Of a stretch of 64,000 bases of DNA, positions 29,891 through 37,066 are shown piece by piece. Both the position numbers and the translations under genes were made by a program. Source of the DNA: Sulfurimonas sp. HSL3-1 (lineage in GTDB: Bacteria > Campylobacterota > Campylobacteria > Campylobacterales > Sulfurimonadaceae); contig NZ_CP147920.1 in NCBI RefSeq assembly GCF_039645995.1, positions 1,116,001 through 1,180,000 of the forward strand. The letters are read 5' to 3'. Under the pieces are notes generated by a model. It searched no databases. It was not told where the DNA came from and saw nothing but the letters and a program-made list of their open reading frames with translations. The number at the start of each line of letters is the position of its first letter. Within the stretch, counting starts at the first letter, position 1.

Positions 29891-30690
29891 CGGACGAGCA
29901 GCGCTTTCATATCGCGCACTGCAGCGGCAAGCCCGGAGAAGACGGAGCGTGCGACAATGCTCTGGCCGATATTGAGCTCCGTGATCTCTGCAATGGCCCT
30001 GATGGCCTGTACGTTGTGGTAGTTGAGTCCGTGGCCCGCGGCGATTTCGAGGCCGATGGAATGGGCGTGTTCCGCGCTCTGGCGCAGGGCGTCGACGGCG
30101 GCTTCGAGGCGGCGCTGCAGGTCGTCGCGCGGCAGTTCGAGGTCGGGGATGCTGTGGCGGGTATAGGGGAGGGCGGAGTGAAGCATCGCATAGATATTGG
30201 CGTAGGTTCCCGTGTGGAGTTCCACCATTTCCGCTTCCAGGGCTTTGGACTGTTCCATAATGTGCGCGGAGGGATCGACGAAGAGCGATACGGGGATCCC
30301 GGCATCGTGAAGCTGGTCGATCGCATCGGAGACGGCGGTGCTTTGGCCGATGACGTCAAGCCCGCCTTCGGTGGTCACCTCTTCGCGGTTTTCCGGCACA
30401 AGCGTGGCGCGGTGGGGACGGAGTTCGCAGACGATGTCGATGATCGACTGGTTGATGGAGCACTCCAGGTTGACCGGCAGCGGCGAGGAGGCGATGATCT
30501 TCTGGGCGTCCTCGTCGTGAATGTGGCGGCGGTCTTCGCGGAGGTGGATGGTGATCTGGTCCGCGCCGTTCTGCGCACAGAGGGCGAGGGCCATCAGCGG
30601 GTCGGGATCATTGATGCGGCGCGCTTCGCGCAGTACGGCGATATGGTCGATATTGACGCCGAGCTGGATGGGACGGTGATCCTGGGGCAT
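29887..30690 (-). CDS. pdxJ: Pyridoxine 5'-phosphate synthase
   Basis: About 267 residues. LGVNIDHIAVLREARR, the HLREDRRHIHDED motif and GLEIAAGHGLNYHNV are the PdxJ signatures. It condenses the PdxA product with deoxyxylulose 5-phosphate. ATG at 30690 with AAGGAG is clearly better than the upstream start at 30714. The gene runs away from the guanidine riboswitch promoter on the opposite strand. Confidence 0.97.
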   Translation of the reverse strand: MPQDHRPIQLGVNIDHIAVLREARRINDPDPLMALALCAQNGADQITIHLREDRRHIHDEDAQKIIASSPLPVNLECSINQSIIDIVCELRPHRATLVPENREEVTTEGGLDVIGQSTAVSDAIDQLHDAGIPVSLFVDPSAHIMEQSKALEAEMVELHTGTYANIYAMLHSALPYTRHSIPDLELPRDDLQRRLEAAVDALRQSAEHAHSIGLEIAAGHGLNYHNVQAIRAIAEITELNIGQSIVARSVFSGLAAAVRDMKALLVR

Positions 30691-30860
30691 GCAACTCCTT
30701 CTCTGCTCTCTCAATGGTCATGAAATTATACCCATATTAACAGATAAAATCGGTAAAAAGGATTTGGCCGTTTTCGCGCATTGAACACGAAAGTTGTGAC
30801 TGTTTTTAATGGTGATTATTTTTTAACCACCAAACTTCTTCACCTGTTTGATAAAAATGT

Positions 30861-30866
30861 TATACT
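30861..30866 (+). promoter_or_regulatory. Predicted -10 element of the guanidine operon
   Basis: TATACT in an AT-rich window, about 20 bases before the first arm of the riboswitch leader. No convincing -35 box is visible, as is common for sigma-70 promoters of this phylum. Confidence 0.45.
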
Positions 30867-30887
30867 GACACCCAGAAAGCATGTCAC

Positions 30888-31021
30888 GAGGTTGTTTAAC
30901 CTCACCACTGTCTACAATAGGCGGCTAGGGTTCCGGCGGGTTACCGTGTCTGGTCCGAGAGCCGTCGACCTCTTGAGTAGGGGTTACACGGAGGGATAAA
31001 AGCCCGGGAGGTTACAACCTC
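30888..31021 (+). promoter_or_regulatory. Guanidine-I riboswitch (ykkC class) with switching arms
   Basis: The conserved ykkC core is present in order: CTAGGGTTCCG (30925-30935), GGTCCGAGAG (30952-30961) and ACACGGAGGGATAAAAGCCC (30986-31005) with GGGAG behind it. These blocks form the guanidinium-binding pocket in characterised guanidine-I RNAs. Around them lie two copies of GAGGTT (30888, 31008) and two of AACCTC (30898, 31016). They can pair as two local hairpins or as the long-range P1 stem (30898-30903 with 31008-31013). It precedes an ABC transporter for a guanidine-like substrate, so ligand-induced expression is expected. Confidence 0.93.
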
Positions 31022-31059
31022 TTGGCGTGTTTATTCCATTACCTACTCAGGAGATTTAC

Positions 31060-32130
31060 ATGAAATCTATTTTCAAATCTACCTCAAAACTCTTAGTTGC
31101 CGCTACGCTGGTCATGGGCCTTGGTGCCTCTTCGCTGATGGCGGAAGTCAAAGATAAGTTTCAGGTCTCCTGGACGATCTATGTCGGATGGATGCCCTGG
31201 GATTACGCCCAGCAAAAAGGGATCATCGACAAGTGGGCCAAAAAATACGGCATCGAGATCGAGATGGTCCAGGTCAACGACTACATCGAATCAATCAACC
31301 AATATACTGCAGGAAAATTTGACGGCTGTCTCATGACGAACATGGACGCCCTCACTATTCCGGCTGCCGGCGGCGTTGACTCTACGGCGGTCATCATGGG
31401 TGACTACTCCAACGGGAACGACGGTATCCTCCTCAAAAACAAGAAAAAACTTTCCGACATCAAAGGCCAGACGGTCAACCTCGTCGAACTCTCTGTCTCA
31501 CACTACCTGCTGGCGCGTGCGCTTGAAACGGTTGGCCTGAGCGAGAAAGACGTCAAGGTCCTCAACACATCCGACGCCGACATGGTCGCGGCATGGGGGA
31601 CGAAAGACGTTACGGCGATGACGACATGGAATCCGCAGCTCAGCGAGATCATGGCCAACAATAAAGATGCGAACCTTGTCTTCGACTCCAGCAAGACGCC
31701 GGGCGAGATCATCGATATGCTCGTCATCAACACTGAAACGCTCAAAGACAACCCGAAACTGGCCAAGGCACTGACCGGTGCATGGTTTGAAACGATGGCA
31801 CTGATGAAAAAGGGCGACGAAGCGGCCCTGACTTTTATGGCGCAGGCTTCCGGTACGGACCTCGCGGGGTACAAGAGCCAGCTTGACTCCACGATGATGT
31901 TCTACGAGCCCGCTGACCTGCTGACGTTCACAACCAGCGACGCCATTCCGGCGACGATGAAAAAAGTCAGCGAATTCTCCTTTGATCACGGCATCCTCGG
32001 TGAAGGTGCTCCTGACGCCGAGTTCATCGGTATGGCGTTCCCGGGCGGTAAAACGTTCGGTGATCCGAAAAACATCAAGCTTCGCTTCGACGACACCTAC
32101 GTCAAAATGGCAGCCGAAGGGAAACTGTAA
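31060..32130 (+). CDS. ABC transporter substrate-binding protein, guanidine-associated (urea/nitrate-like type)
   Basis: 356 residues with a signal peptide ending ASSLMA. The mature protein has the NMT1/nitrate-sulfonate-type periplasmic fold: VGWMPWDYAQQKGIIDKWAK, then GDYSNGNDGILLKNKKKLSD and DADMVAAWGTKDVTAMTTWN. It is the family often annotated as a putative urea transporter, and it sits directly behind a guanidine-I riboswitch, which points to guanidine or a derivative as ligand. AGGAG before the ATG at 31060. First gene of the operon. Confidence 0.85.
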   Translation: MKSIFKSTSKLLVAATLVMGLGASSLMAEVKDKFQVSWTIYVGWMPWDYAQQKGIIDKWAKKYGIEIEMVQVNDYIESINQYTAGKFDGCLMTNMDALTIPAAGGVDSTAVIMGDYSNGNDGILLKNKKKLSDIKGQTVNLVELSVSHYLLARALETVGLSEKDVKVLNTSDADMVAAWGTKDVTAMTTWNPQLSEIMANNKDANLVFDSSKTPGEIIDMLVINTETLKDNPKLAKALTGAWFETMALMKKGDEAALTFMAQASGTDLAGYKSQLDSTMMFYEPADLLTFTTSDAIPATMKKVSEFSFDHGILGEGAPDAEFIGMAFPGGKTFGDPKNIKLRFDDTYVKMAAEGKL

Positions 32131-32139
32131 GGTCCTCTC

Positions 32140-32964
32140 ATGAAACGTTTAATGAACCTCAGACCGTCGAAGCCGTCCCTCTTTTTCCTGGGGCTGCTGC
32201 CGTTTGTGCTGATCGTGCTCCTCTACCTGGGAGCGTCGGAAGTCCGTCTGGCGGAAAATCCGAACGACAAACTGCTGCCCTCCATGAGCAGCTTTGCCGA
32301 AGCCATCGACCGTATGGCGTTTGAACCGAGCAAGCGTACCGGCGAATACCTCTTCGCCCGGGATACGGTTGCCTCACTCGAGCGTCTCGGCCTCGGCGTG
32401 CTCATCAGTGCGGTGCTTGCGCTGCTGATGGGGATCCCGCTGGGGTTCATTCCCTTCGTTCGTGCGGGCCTTTCGCCCTTCGTCGCGGCCTTTTCCATGG
32501 TGCCGCCAATGGCTATTTTGCCCATCTTATTCATTATCTTCGGTATGGGTGAGCTGGCTAAAGTAGCACTGATCGTCATCGGGGTGACCCCGCTGATCGT
32601 CCGCGACCTGCAGCAGCGGGTCATGGAGATTCCTGCGGAGCAGCTGATCAAGGCACAGACCCTGGGCGGATCGTCCTGGACGATCGTCCTGCGCGTCGTG
32701 CTGCCGCAGATCTTTCCGCGCCTGCTTGATGCGGTGCGCCTCACCATGGGGACGGCGTGGATCTTCCTGATCTCCGCCGAAGCGATTTCGGCCACCGAAG
32801 GGCTGGGGTACCGGATCTTCCTGGTACGCCGCTATCTGTCGATGGATGTGATCCTGCCGTATGTCGCCTGGATCACCTTCCTCGCCTTTTTGTTTGATTA
32901 TCTGCTCAAGCGATTCACTTACAAGGTGTTCCCGTGGTATGACGCAGGAAAGGAGCAGTCATGA
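32140..32964 (+). CDS. ABC transporter permease of the guanidine-associated system
   Basis: 274 residues with about six membrane helices. The EAA loop region (EQLIKAQTLGGSSWTIVLRV, then PQIFPRLLDAVR) couples to the ATPase, as in the SsuC/NrtB family. Nine bases after the binding-protein gene, and its stop overlaps the ATPase start (ATGA). Confidence 0.88.
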   Translation: MKRLMNLRPSKPSLFFLGLLPFVLIVLLYLGASEVRLAENPNDKLLPSMSSFAEAIDRMAFEPSKRTGEYLFARDTVASLERLGLGVLISAVLALLMGIPLGFIPFVRAGLSPFVAAFSMVPPMAILPILFIIFGMGELAKVALIVIGVTPLIVRDLQQRVMEIPAEQLIKAQTLGGSSWTIVLRVVLPQIFPRLLDAVRLTMGTAWIFLISAEAISATEGLGYRIFLVRRYLSMDVILPYVAWITFLAFLFDYLLKRFTYKVFPWYDAGKEQS

Positions 32965-33725
32965 GCCTCGTCACCGTCAAAAACCTCTGGAAAGAGTACG
33001 GCGACAACGTCGTGCTGGAAAACCTGAACCTGAACATCGAAGCGGGGGAATTCTGTACGCTCGTCGGACCGTCGGGCTGCGGGAAAACGACCTTTCTGAA
33101 GATGCTGCTGGGGCAGGAGAACCCGACCCGCGGCACCTTTTTGCTTGATGGGAAGCCTTTCCCGGAAGAGCCGGGTGTCGACCGCGGGATCGTCTTCCAG
33201 CGTTACTCGGTCTTTTCGCACCTGAGCGTGCTGAAAAACGTCATGCTCGGGATCGAGTTTGACCAGTCGCCGCTGATGGGGCGCCTTTTCGGCCAGGCCC
33301 GCAAGGCGGCGGAAGCCGAAGCGATGGCTATGCTTGAAGCCGTCGGCCTGGGCGACGCGGCGCACAAGTACCCCAGCGAGCTCTCCGGGGGGATGCAGCA
33401 GCGTCTCTCCATCGCGCAGTCTCTGGTGAAAAAGCCGAAGATCCTGCTGCTGGACGAACCCTTCGGAGCCCTCGACCCGGGGATCCGCGCCGACATGCAC
33501 GCGCTGATCCTCGACCTGTGGGAGAAGAACAACCTCACCGTCGTTATGGTGACCCATGACCTCCACGAGGGATTCTACCTGGGAACGCGGCTGCTGGTCT
33601 TCGACAAGGTTCGTCACGATCCGCATGCACCCAACGCCTACGGGGCGCGCATCACCTACGACATCCCCGTCGGGGATACGCGCGAATCCGTACTCGAAGA
33701 GATCGATAAAACCATCAAGGTTTGA
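32961..33725 (+). CDS. ABC transporter ATP-binding protein of the guanidine-associated system
   Basis: 254 residues. Walker A GPSGCGKTTF, signature LSGGMQQRLSIAQ, Walker B ILLLDEPFGALDP and H-loop VTHDLHEG are all intact. Energises uptake by the two preceding proteins. Stop at 33725, ten bases before the hairpin module of the first guanidine-II riboswitch. Confidence 0.92.
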   Translation: MSLVTVKNLWKEYGDNVVLENLNLNIEAGEFCTLVGPSGCGKTTFLKMLLGQENPTRGTFLLDGKPFPEEPGVDRGIVFQRYSVFSHLSVLKNVMLGIEFDQSPLMGRLFGQARKAAEAEAMAMLEAVGLGDAAHKYPSELSGGMQQRLSIAQSLVKKPKILLLDEPFGALDPGIRADMHALILDLWEKNNLTVVMVTHDLHEGFYLGTRLLVFDKVRHDPHAPNAYGARITYDIPVGDTRESVLEEIDKTIKV

Positions 33726-33734
33726 TCCAATCCC

Positions 33735-33797
33735 GGAAGAGCAGATCTTCCAGTGCCGCAGGACGACTTGCGGCATCATGACGCGCGGGACGGCCCG
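33735..33797 (+). promoter_or_regulatory. Guanidine-II riboswitch (mini-ykkC), copy 1, with preceding GGAAGA hairpin
   Basis: Two hairpins with ACGR tetraloops define mini-ykkC. The first is TGCCGCAGG-ACGA-CTTGCGGCA at 33754-33775 (nine pairs, one G-T). The second is CGGG-ACGG-CCCG at 33786-33797. They are joined by a 10-base linker and followed by the GAAGGAG ribosome site of the next gene. A third hairpin, GGAAGA-GCAGA-TCTTCC (33735-33751), lies directly before and is repeated in copy 2. Known guanidine-II RNAs expose the ribosome site on binding guanidinium; the same is expected here. Confidence 0.92.
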
Positions 33798-33817
33798 AAA
33801 ACTTTGAAGGAGAAACA

Positions 33818-34555
33818 GTGATTACTGAACACAAAAACCTGAAACCAGAATCCATCATCCTCGACGAGGTGCTCCCGGGCGGTGCACGCTGGTCGAAGAT
33901 CATCAAGCGCGGCGACAAGATCCGCATCACGACCAAGGACGGGCTGGGCACCCTCAGCGCGATGTTCTACAACGCCGACAACACCTCGGAGCGTTTCAAC
34001 TCTGCCGACACGGTCAAACTTCAGCATAATGCCTACTTCTGCAAAGGGCGGGTTTTCTATTCCGAGCAGGGCCGCGTTCTGCTTTCCATTACGGAAGATA
34101 CGACCGAGGGGCTTTTTGATGCCATCGGCGGGATCAGCAACCCGCGCCTTGTCGCGAAAAACTTCGGCGAAGGCGATTTCGAACATATCCGCAACCGCTA
34201 CTACAAAAGCGACCGGGAGAACTTCCTCGTCGAACTCGGCAAATACGGCATGGGAAAACGCGACATGCTTCAGGCGGTCAACTTCTTCAGACGTGTCGAC
34301 GTCAAAGAGGGCAACAAGCTGGCGCTTTCGGAAAAGCGGCCGCAGCCGGAGAGCTACATCGAACTGCGTGCGGAGATGAACGTCCTGCTGGTACTCTCCA
34401 ACACGCCGCATGTCATGGAAACGGGAACGTACAACCCGAGCGACGTCCAGCTGACGCTGTTCAAAGCGGCCCCGGTCACCGAAGATGATTACTGCATGAA
34501 CTTCAGTATCCAGTCCCAACGTGCGTTCAAGAACAACGCACGCTACTTTGCCTGA
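33818..34555 (+). CDS. Urea amidolyase-associated / carboxyguanidine deiminase subunit (DUF1989), larger
   Basis: 245 residues, GTG start behind GAAGGAG. The DUF1989 pattern is visible: LPGGARWSKIIKRGDKIRI, SAMFYNADNTSERFNSADT, AVNFFRRVDVKEG and ELRAEMNVLLVLSNTPH. In guanidine-degrading bacteria two such proteins form carboxyguanidine deiminase (CgdA/CgdB), which turns carboxyguanidine into allophanate and ammonia. It is the first gene after guanidine-II copy 1 and is paired with a second DUF1989 gene. Which is CgdA and which CgdB is not decided here. Confidence 0.88.
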   Translation: MITEHKNLKPESIILDEVLPGGARWSKIIKRGDKIRITTKDGLGTLSAMFYNADNTSERFNSADTVKLQHNAYFCKGRVFYSEQGRVLLSITEDTTEGLFDAIGGISNPRLVAKNFGEGDFEHIRNRYYKSDRENFLVELGKYGMGKRDMLQAVNFFRRVDVKEGNKLALSEKRPQPESYIELRAEMNVLLVLSNTPHVMETGTYNPSDVQLTLFKAAPVTEDDYCMNFSIQSQRAFKNNARYFA

Positions 34556-35190: not shown

Positions 35191-36204
35191 ATGAAAAAGG
35201 CGACACGGCTTCTGCGCTTCGAAGATGCATGGCTGCCGAACCTGGCGGCATGGACCTATATGCTGAGTGCCTACGTGGGCGGATTTGCCGCCATCCTGGC
35301 CGATTCCTTGTGGCTGAACGCGGCAGGGGTACTCCTGCTGGCGCACGGTATGGTCATCGCCGCCTATTTCATTCACGAGTGTGCCCACGATTCGCTCTTC
35401 AGGCTGCCGATCAACAACCACCGCTTCGGAGAGGCACTGCTCTGGATCTGCGGCGCGTCGTACAGTGATTACGAGGCGATACGTCTGAAGCATGTCCGCC
35501 ACCACTTGGATCGTGCCGACGTCGTTTCGTTCGATTTCCGTACCCGCCTGCTGCACTATCCGAAACTGCTCAAGACGATCCAGGTACTGGAGTGGTTCTA
35601 CATCCCGGCCCTTGAGATCATGATGCACGCCCTGGTCGTGGTTCTGCCGTTTGTCAAAGAGAGCCGCCGCTATCTGCGCCGCCGCGTCGTTACGGTACTG
35701 CTGCTGCGTATCGCTTTCTTTGGCGCACTGGCCTCGATTTCGCTGAAGGTGCTGCTGCTTTACCCGCTGGCGTACATGATTTTCCTGACGGTCATGCGTT
35801 TCATGGACGTGCACCAGCACACCTATGATGTGCATGAAACATTGGACTTTTCGCGCGAAGCGCAAGTAAAACAGTATGACCGCGCCTTCGAATCGCGCAA
35901 CACCTATTCGAACCTGATCTCAGAGAAATACCCGTGGCTGAACCTGCTGGTCCTCAATTTCGCGTACCACAACGTTCACCACGACCAGCAGATCCAGCCG
36001 TGGTACCGGCTGCCGGGGCTGCATGCCAAGCTCTACGGCGAGGACAGGACGCAGGTGCTGATGTTCTCTGACCTGGCGCGCAGCTACCACCGCTACCGTG
36101 TCGCGCGGGTCCTCAACGGGGACCCGGCCGACCTTGACGTCAAGCACGATGCAGGCCGCACCTTTATCGGGGTGGACGGCGTCTCGTTCCTGACGGCGCA
36201 CTGA
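35191..36204 (+). CDS. Membrane di-iron fatty-acid-desaturase-fold enzyme
   Basis: 337 residues with about four to five membrane helices. The three histidine boxes of the desaturase/hydroxylase superfamily are present: HECAHD (62-67), HVRHH (101-105) and HNVHH (260-264), plus an extra HQH near residue 210. Such enzymes use O2 at a di-iron site to desaturate or hydroxylate. It is embedded in the guanidine operon, four bases after the deiminase gene, so a nitrogenous substrate (for example an alkyl- or acyl-guanidine) is more plausible than bulk lipid, but this is inference. Not a known part of guanidine assimilation. Confidence 0.8.
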   Translation: MKKATRLLRFEDAWLPNLAAWTYMLSAYVGGFAAILADSLWLNAAGVLLLAHGMVIAAYFIHECAHDSLFRLPINNHRFGEALLWICGASYSDYEAIRLKHVRHHLDRADVVSFDFRTRLLHYPKLLKTIQVLEWFYIPALEIMMHALVVVLPFVKESRRYLRRRVVTVLLLRIAFFGALASISLKVLLLYPLAYMIFLTVMRFMDVHQHTYDVHETLDFSREAQVKQYDRAFESRNTYSNLISEKYPWLNLLVLNFAYHNVHHDQQIQPWYRLPGLHAKLYGEDRTQVLMFSDLARSYHRYRVARVLNGDPADLDVKHDAGRTFIGVDGVSFLTAH

Positions 36205-36215
36205 AGGAGTCCAAC

Positions 36216-36998
36216 ATGACACAGGTAAAGAAGTTCTGGCCCATCCTGACGGGAACCCACCGTTACGAGAAGACGCTCTCAACCCGCAACCACGGGGCGG
36301 GAGTGATCATCGACGCCCCGATCCTGGCTTACCTGATCGAGACGTCCAACGGCCGTATCCTTTACGATGTGGGATGCGACTACACGAAGATCGCCGACCC
36401 GGTTCTGCGCAAGCAGTTCTACGAGCACGAGGGCTTTCCCTTCGGCCCGCCGCAGATGACCGAGGAACAGCGTCTGCCCAACCGTCTGGCGGAGCTGGGG
36501 CTGCAGAAGGAAGACATCGACGTCGTCTTCTGCGGGCATCTGCATTTCGACCACGCCGGCGGGGTCTGCGAATTCTGCGGTGCGGAAGTGCACGTGCATG
36601 AAAAAGAGCTCGAGGCGGCGCGGGAGCCGGCGGACGAAGCCTACTTCAAAGAGGACTTCGACTGTCCGGTGAACTGGCGCGTTTACACGGGTGAATACGA
36701 CCTCGTCCCCGGCGTCCGCGCCATCGAGACGCCGGGCCATACGGCCGGCCACATGTCAATGATGATCGAGCTGCCCAAGGGCTCCCCGATCCTCCTTGCC
36801 GGCGACGCGGCGGACCTGCGGGAGAACCTGGAGCGGGAGATCGCGCCGGGGCTCTGCTACCGCGACGACGAAACGCAGGCGCTGGAGAGCATCCGCAAGC
36901 TCAAACGGCTCGCCCTTGAAACGGGCGCGGATCTGTGGCCCAACCACGACATGGCCTTTTTCGAGAGCAAGAACCGCTTTCCGAAATTTTTCGAATAA
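36216..36998 (+). CDS. Metallo-beta-lactamase-fold hydrolase (N-acyl homoserine lactonase-like)
   Basis: 260 residues. The di-zinc motif HLHFDHAGG (His108, His110, Asp112, His113), the later GHTAGHMS His and the LLAGDAADL Asp are those of the AiiA/AttM lactonase subgroup. The family opens lactones, esters or thioesters. Eleven bases after the desaturase-like gene and immediately before guanidine-II copy 2; the substrate is unknown, but the pairing suggests a two-step oxidise-then-hydrolyse reaction. Confidence 0.82.
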
Positions 36999-37003
36999 CG
37001 CCG

Positions 37004-37066
37004 GGAAGAGCGTTTCTTCCAGTGCCTCGGGACGGCCTGCGGCATTCAGACGACCGGGACGGCCCG
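37004..37066 (+). promoter_or_regulatory. Guanidine-II riboswitch (mini-ykkC), copy 2, with preceding GGAAGA hairpin
   Basis: Same architecture as copy 1. First hairpin TGCCTCGGG-ACGG-CCTGCGGCA (37023-37044) has one mismatch and one G-T; the second, CGGG-ACGG-CCCG (37055-37066), is perfect. The preceding hairpin GGAAGA-GCGTT-TCTTCC (37004-37020) keeps the copy-1 stem exactly but changes the loop. The two copies are nearly identical over about 63 bases, so one arose by duplication. TAAGGA, the ribosome site of the carboxylase gene, follows at 37081. Confidence 0.92.

Follow-up and report, generated by a model that had tools for sequence, protein, structure and literature searches.

A guanidine-I leader of Sulfurimonas with a candidate Shine-Dalgarno-masking P2 strand and a closing stem from the predicted mRNA 5′ end

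Introduction

How does a guanidine-I riboswitch control its genes when the hairpin behind its aptamer lacks a clear T tract? This question is raised by a leader in Sulfurimonas sp. HSL3-1, which we analysed within a window of 64,000 nucleotides (contig NZ_CP147920.1, positions 1,116,001 to 1,180,000; coordinates below are those of the window). A first-pass annotation had recognised four short arms around a guanidine-I aptamer that could form either two local hairpins or a long-range P1 stem, and it had doubted that control is by plain intrinsic termination. The usual expression platform of guanidine-I is given as a terminator in the relevant part of a review (PMC12186494), and a passage of a paper on guanidine use by comammox bacteria calls guanidine-I a transcriptional suppressor (PMC11410670). 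In the PRPP/ppGpp riboswitches (ykkC subtype 2), a P0 helix joins both ends of the aptamer and serves the expression platform, and P0 is described as absent from guanidine-I in the section concerned of the same source (PMC6031431). For guanidine-II and guanidine-III, release of the Shine-Dalgarno sequence by guanidine is described or predicted, again in a section of the review (PMC12186494).

Materials and Methods

Comparisons drew on 45 Campylobacterota loci, of which 42 were collected by a core pattern and three (L026, L035 and L037) through Rfam coordinates; cluster tests used 19 representatives of the 42 core-pattern loci. The control set was taken from 117 loci, from which L042 was moved to the Campylobacterota and L136 and L156 were dropped by hand (genome repeats). 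The remaining 114 loci carry 115 aptamers; parsing failed for 24, which left 91 for the analysis. Because the MAFFT alignment A1 misaligned the P2 loops, pairs were counted by fixed rules, and none was taken from A1.

The count of pairs between P2 and the ribosome-binding site (RBS), hereafter P2:RBS, covers 39 loci, five being omitted by rule (L016, L017, L018, L038 and L039) and L035 by choice; L035 was included in the slid-register and tree-null tests of this helix. The count of outer P0 pairs covers 34 loci and omits the 11 loci of the g6 genus, which have a different arm grammar. The tree of the downstream gene omits ten loci (eight before porin-like genes, one before another gene and one shortened), and the tree null lets the two strands evolve independently from a paired ancestor in 1000 simulations. 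Energies were compared in 24 folded leaders, that of the window included, namely 20 leaders and four porin-type second copies.

Results

The Rfam model RF00442 (Guanidine-I, ykkC) matched positions 30914-31012 of the + strand with 89.3 bits (gathering score, 63), over model positions 1-107, and this aptamer, with its P1, P2 and P3, is placed between the arms of the four-arm element. It was the single guanidine-I copy found in the genome. The first gene behind it (31060-32130, +) encodes an ABC transporter substrate-binding protein (TIGR03427, 559 bits, cut-off 333.9; PF09084) and is followed on the same strand by genes for a permease, an ATPase and two DUF1989 proteins (UAAP1 and UAAP2). Further members of the cluster encode a desaturase-like protein, a metallo-beta-lactamase-fold protein and a urea-carboxylase-type enzyme, with an amidase gene farther downstream. 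This is a cluster for guanidine import and breakdown, and the gene context of the leader is one of guanidine genes, as against the purine or amino-acid context of ykkC subtype 2. The full-length model match and the context of guanidine transport and degradation genes place the aptamer in the guanidine-I class. Note that RF00442 alone, and not the subtype 2 (PRPP/ppGpp) model, was reported at the locus, weaker overlapping matches of the same clan being hidden by the search output.

The fatty-acid-desaturase-like and metallo-beta-lactamase-fold genes occupy 35191-36998, between UAAP2 and the carboxylase. Guanidine-II elements lie at 33755-33797, before UAAP1, and at 37024-37066, before the carboxylase; the latter scored 29.0 bits, which is under the Rfam cut-off here, and the element is over the cut-off in two congeners. 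One gene cluster is served by three guanidine sensors, one guanidine-I and two guanidine-II. According to part of the review, other bacteria have clusters in which the importer carries guanidine-I and enzyme genes carry guanidine-II (PMC12186494). Guanidine-II elements of their own on two later genes would be less needed if guanidine-I gated transcription of the whole cluster.

The four arms stand in the order that had been proposed, with GAGGTT at 30888-30893 (arm 1), AACCTC at 30898-30903 (arm 2), GAGGTT at 31008-31013 (arm 3) and AACCTC at 31016-31021 (arm 4), all on the + strand. A 6-mer, its reverse complement and the same two again at similar spacing appeared in none of 20,000 mononucleotide shuffles of 30871-31040, which rules out a chance origin of the arms, and no dinucleotide shuffle out of 200 folded as stably as the leader (30880-31040; z = -3.36). 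The arms as first described were real but incomplete, since folds extend arm 1 in the 5′ direction to 30877 and arm 4 in the 3′ direction to 31032. Extended arm 1 (30877-30895, +) would be the 5′ strand of an outer P0 helix, and its GAGGTT would pair with arm 2 in the other state; extended arm 4 (31014-31032, +) would be the 3′ strand, as folds and covariation of the outer pairs suggest. From sequence and folds, arm 2 may pair with arm 1 in a hairpin or with arm 3 in the inner P0, and arm 3 with arm 2 or with arm 4.

RNAfold paired 30877-30903 with 31008-31032, i.e., arms 1:4 in addition to arms 2:3, with extensions, so that the full P0 would have ~25 bp. The folds bear out the earlier view that the arms can form either two local hairpins or a long-range stem that closes the aptamer, except that this stem is not the P1 of the class. 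The class P1 lies inside the aptamer, and the long-range stem is, in the fold, an added P0-like stem outside the modelled aptamer. A TATAAT-like hexamer (at most one mismatch) stands directly 5′ of arm 1 in 44 of the 45 leaders; in the window it is a -10-like box, TATACT (30861-30866, +), listed as a weak promoter-like site, from which transcription is predicted to start at ~30874. Since the box adjoins arm 1 in nearly all leaders, arm 1 is probably the extreme 5′ end of the mRNA. This predicted 5′ end finds its P0 partners in arms 3 and 4 together with the U-rich tail.

A duplex of 19-29 bp between the 5′ and 3′ segments was found in 45/45 Campylobacterota leaders and was weakest in five porin-type leaders. 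For the outer seven P0 pairs, 74 of 84 cells were paired against 67.6 in shuffles (0/5000 as good; 34 loci of one arm grammar, 12 of them distinct), with compensatory changes at two positions. Slid registers gave 11-55%, and the tree null attained the observed value in 1/1000 simulations. Within the g6 genus (11 loci with different arm sequences), the outer P0 showed no covariation (130/144 cells paired vs 130.2 in shuffles); the g6 locus L030 retains 16/16 P0 pairs despite arms that are quite different in sequence. Among the 19 Campylobacterota representatives, 6 of 5000 permutations were as good as the cognate duplex of the leader with arm 3 (arms 2:3), for which near-invariance makes the comparative support weak, and the duplex of arm 3 with the downstream segment was not significant (597/5000). 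Judged by this comparison, P0 is conserved, and it covaries in its outer part.

A second helix, which would provide a concrete output other than a terminator, had been missed in the first-pass annotation; its 3′ strand lies beyond the stretch described there. Specifically, CTCTTGAGTAGG (30970-30981, +), in the P2 hairpin (P2 stem 30968-30984), is complementary over 12 contiguous pairs to CCTACTCAGGAG (31042-31053, +), the ribosome-binding region with the Shine-Dalgarno sequence AGGAG at 31049-31053. Covariation and folds make the former a candidate RBS-masking strand and the latter its putative target. In relatives, GAGTA/TACTC is replaced by GAATA/TATTC, AAATA/TATTT, ATATA/TATGT or AAGCG/CGCTT, and compensatory changes occurred at 7/7 tested pairs. 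Overall, 85 of 91 cells were paired against 69.5 in shuffles (0/5000; 13 distinct arm pairs from 39 of the 45 loci), and pairing was 92% in register and 32-44% with the partner slid. In the test over 35 loci on the downstream-protein tree, 232 of 245 cells were paired against 168 under the null, and 0/1000 simulations reached the observed value. Even with the Shine-Dalgarno sequence excluded, cognate duplexes had -7.09 kcal/mol and permuted ones -4.74 kcal/mol, 0/10,000 being as good. Segment combinations without expected pairing, which share the same relatedness, were flat in the permutation test of the 19 Campylobacterota representatives. With independent contrasts taken pair by pair, events were too few for significance, and no test pointed in the wrong direction. 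The exceptions to the P2:RBS rule are the porin-type second-copy leaders L016, L017, L018, L038 and L039; L035 fits partly.

Five of the seven covarying nucleotides belong to the P2 loop, so that pairing would be possible without opening P2. About 5-7 pairs could then form a pseudoknot between the P2 loop and the RBS with P2 intact, acting as an OFF contact or a constitutive damping contact, whether ligand-independent or ligand-caused. We consider this improbable, because the pairing runs on contiguously into the 5′ strand of P2 and spans AGGAG (12 pairs), and because initiation would be blocked in the ligand-bound state, yet the genes are expected to be induced. The covariation of P2:RBS also bears on a different role for P0, in which the helix would mainly act as a clamp on the mRNA 5′ end, keeping it double-stranded and so controlling decay, and would switch translation or termination little. 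Arm 1 does adjoin the predicted start in 44/45 leaders and is fully paired within P0, but the starts are themselves predictions and a clamp would leave the P2:RBS covariation unaccounted for, which makes this role very improbable in our judgement.

In the folding model, P0 and P2:RBS were mutually exclusive in nested folds. For an RNA ending at 31095, the state with P0 and P1/P2/P3 had -76.8 kcal/mol and the state with hairpins 1:2 and 3:4 and P2:RBS had -72.4 kcal/mol. The probability of P2:RBS was 0.95 for an RNA ending at 31060 and 0.32 for one ending at 31095, and the unconstrained minimum-energy fold of the leader to 31095 was already the P0 state without ligand, which counts against the reading preferred below. 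Of the 20 leaders outside the porin-type second copies, 19 had forced P0 and forced P2:RBS less than 5 kcal/mol apart, and L035 had a gap of 6.7 kcal/mol; among the second copies the gap was 2.8 (L016), 24 (L017), 5.1 (L018) and 1.3 kcal/mol (L038). Comparison and folding together support P0 and P2:RBS as pairings that exclude one another in nested folds and belong to states of nearly equal energy. As modelled, the leader has a Shine-Dalgarno-masking helix that P0 and P2 exclude in nested folds, as expected of a translational riboswitch.

Termination was then weighed against this output. Hairpin 3:4 (31002-31026, +), terminator-like by sequence and folds, reuses the GCC of aptamer P3, which would link it directly to ligand binding. 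It overlaps P3 as the usual guanidine-I terminator platform would, and it has GTGTTTATT, a poor U tract, as its tail. The earlier doubt about the T tract was borne out: the tail reads CGTGTTTATT, and although 31004-31025 is listed as terminator-like with 5 T in 8, the total of such sites is at background (4 in 30600-34000 vs 3.3 expected in shuffles). With this tail and this count, 3:4 as a good terminator in the window was unsupported. A clear T run is confined to the g6 genus, whose real U tract, TTTTTTCT, makes termination likely there.

Plain transcription attenuation would take 3:4 as an intrinsic terminator, arms 2:3 (with 1:4) as an antiterminator closed by guanidine, and P2:RBS as having a minor role. 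This is the usual mode given for guanidine-I in part of the review (PMC12186494), and it would suit the stability of 3:4, the use of P3 bases by this hairpin and the T-rich tail of the g6 genus; however, the tail in the window is poor, the covarying P2:RBS helix would be left unexplained, and in an RNA ending at 31034 P0 is favoured by ~13 kcal/mol without ligand, so that 3:4 could terminate transcription only through kinetic trapping. We therefore regard plain attenuation as unlikely for this leader. The suspicion that control is not plain termination was well founded, given the poor tail and the covarying P2:RBS, and termination probably does not explain the control by itself.

We also scored clusters of guanidine-I leaders from all groups for P2:RBS and P0-like pairing by a common test; because starts were called automatically, and sometimes wrongly, the figures are rough outside the Campylobacterota. 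P2:RBS and P0-like pairing, respectively, were found in 16/19 and 17/19 Campylobacterota, 0/29 and 0/29 Bacillota, 6/13 (cognate vs permuted 0/5000) and 2/13 of a group of gamma- and other proteobacteria, 2/7 and 0/7 Moraxellaceae, 0/20 and 3/20 other betaproteobacteria, 1/4 and 0/4 Nitrospira, 0/9 and 0/9 Nitrosomonadaceae, 0/6 and 0/6 cyanobacteria, and 0/3 and 0/3 others. The zeros of betaproteobacteria and Nitrosomonadaceae are soft, since start calls were visibly wrong for some leaders (e.g., L054 and L101). An earlier scan without start calling had placed 15 of the 91 control loci at z < -2. A platform general to all guanidine-I leaders was unsupported, with Bacillota at background and cyanobacteria flat for both pairings.

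In leaders of Nitrosospira, Nitrosomonas and Nitrospira (L054, L063, L087, L101 and L102), a start region of the form GGAG...ATG has its complement in the 3′ strand of P2, a hint that this strand may mask the start codon. Guanidine-I leaders with the same P0 also stand before porin-like outer-membrane genes (L016, L017, L018, L038, L039, L033, L159 and L161); in several genomes they lie ~1.6 kb 5′ of the guanidine-I that belongs to the transporter. This placement suggests that guanidine controls uptake across the outer membrane. In L041 (Sulfurospirillaceae), the leader precedes a gene for a short protein (164 aa) unlike the transporter protein.

Discussion

The reading that we prefer, with a probability of roughly two in three, is a guanidine-I riboswitch that is ON with ligand and whose platform would flip between two sets of helices. 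Without guanidine, the 5′ hairpin 1:2 would be made first and persist, arm 3 would pair with arm 4 and remove the GCC from P3, and the P2 strand would open and pair with the Shine-Dalgarno region, so that the transporter gene would not be translated; in those lineages whose U tract is good, 3:4 would probably also terminate transcription. With guanidine, P1/P2/P3 would be held, and arms 2:3 and 1:4 would zip into a P0 of ~25 bp from the mRNA 5′ end, precluding hairpin 3:4 and freeing the Shine-Dalgarno sequence. The pairings come from comparison and folding; we infer the direction of the ligand effect, the translational output, the transcription start and the kinetics. The leader in the window probably acts on translation, to which termination, weak or limited to certain lineages, may be added.

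This leader resembles guanidine-I (RF00442) in the sequence and structure of the aptamer, gene context, expected ON direction and overlap of the 3′ hairpin with P3, but it adds to the usual arrangement a P0 from the predicted mRNA 5′ end and a putative P2:RBS masking helix. As in ykkC subtype 2, a P0-like helix joins the aptamer ends, here conserved and covarying in its outer part; whereas P0 of that subtype joins in ligand recognition, here it is longer, lies outside the modelled guanidine-I aptamer and goes with guanidine genes. The proposed freeing of the Shine-Dalgarno sequence by guanidine is shared with guanidine-II and guanidine-III, but their aptamers are unrelated, and the mask here would be a strand of the guanidine-I aptamer itself. 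We found no description of P0 or P2:RBS in guanidine-I in the literature searched, to which the original Nelson 2017 and Reiss 2017 papers did not belong. The aptamer is known, and its expression platform (P0 and the P2:RBS mask) is apparently an undescribed variant.

For the class as a whole, we hold it somewhat more probable than its opposite that guanidine-I is more than a terminator switch, the P2 arm acting as an anti-Shine-Dalgarno strand in Campylobacterota and part of the Gammaproteobacteria, and the P0 from the mRNA 5′ end in Campylobacterota also consuming the terminator-like hairpin and tail, to give transcriptional and translational outputs. The P2 arm-Shine-Dalgarno helix is a specific second output that is cheap to test, and a translational output of this kind would answer why the T tract is absent, offering a reason for the leader's apparent terminator without a U tract. 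It would show a single aptamer fold serving two expression platforms and would alter the reading of expression data on guanidine-using bacteria, suggesting that the guanidine-I class can control protein synthesis besides transcription.
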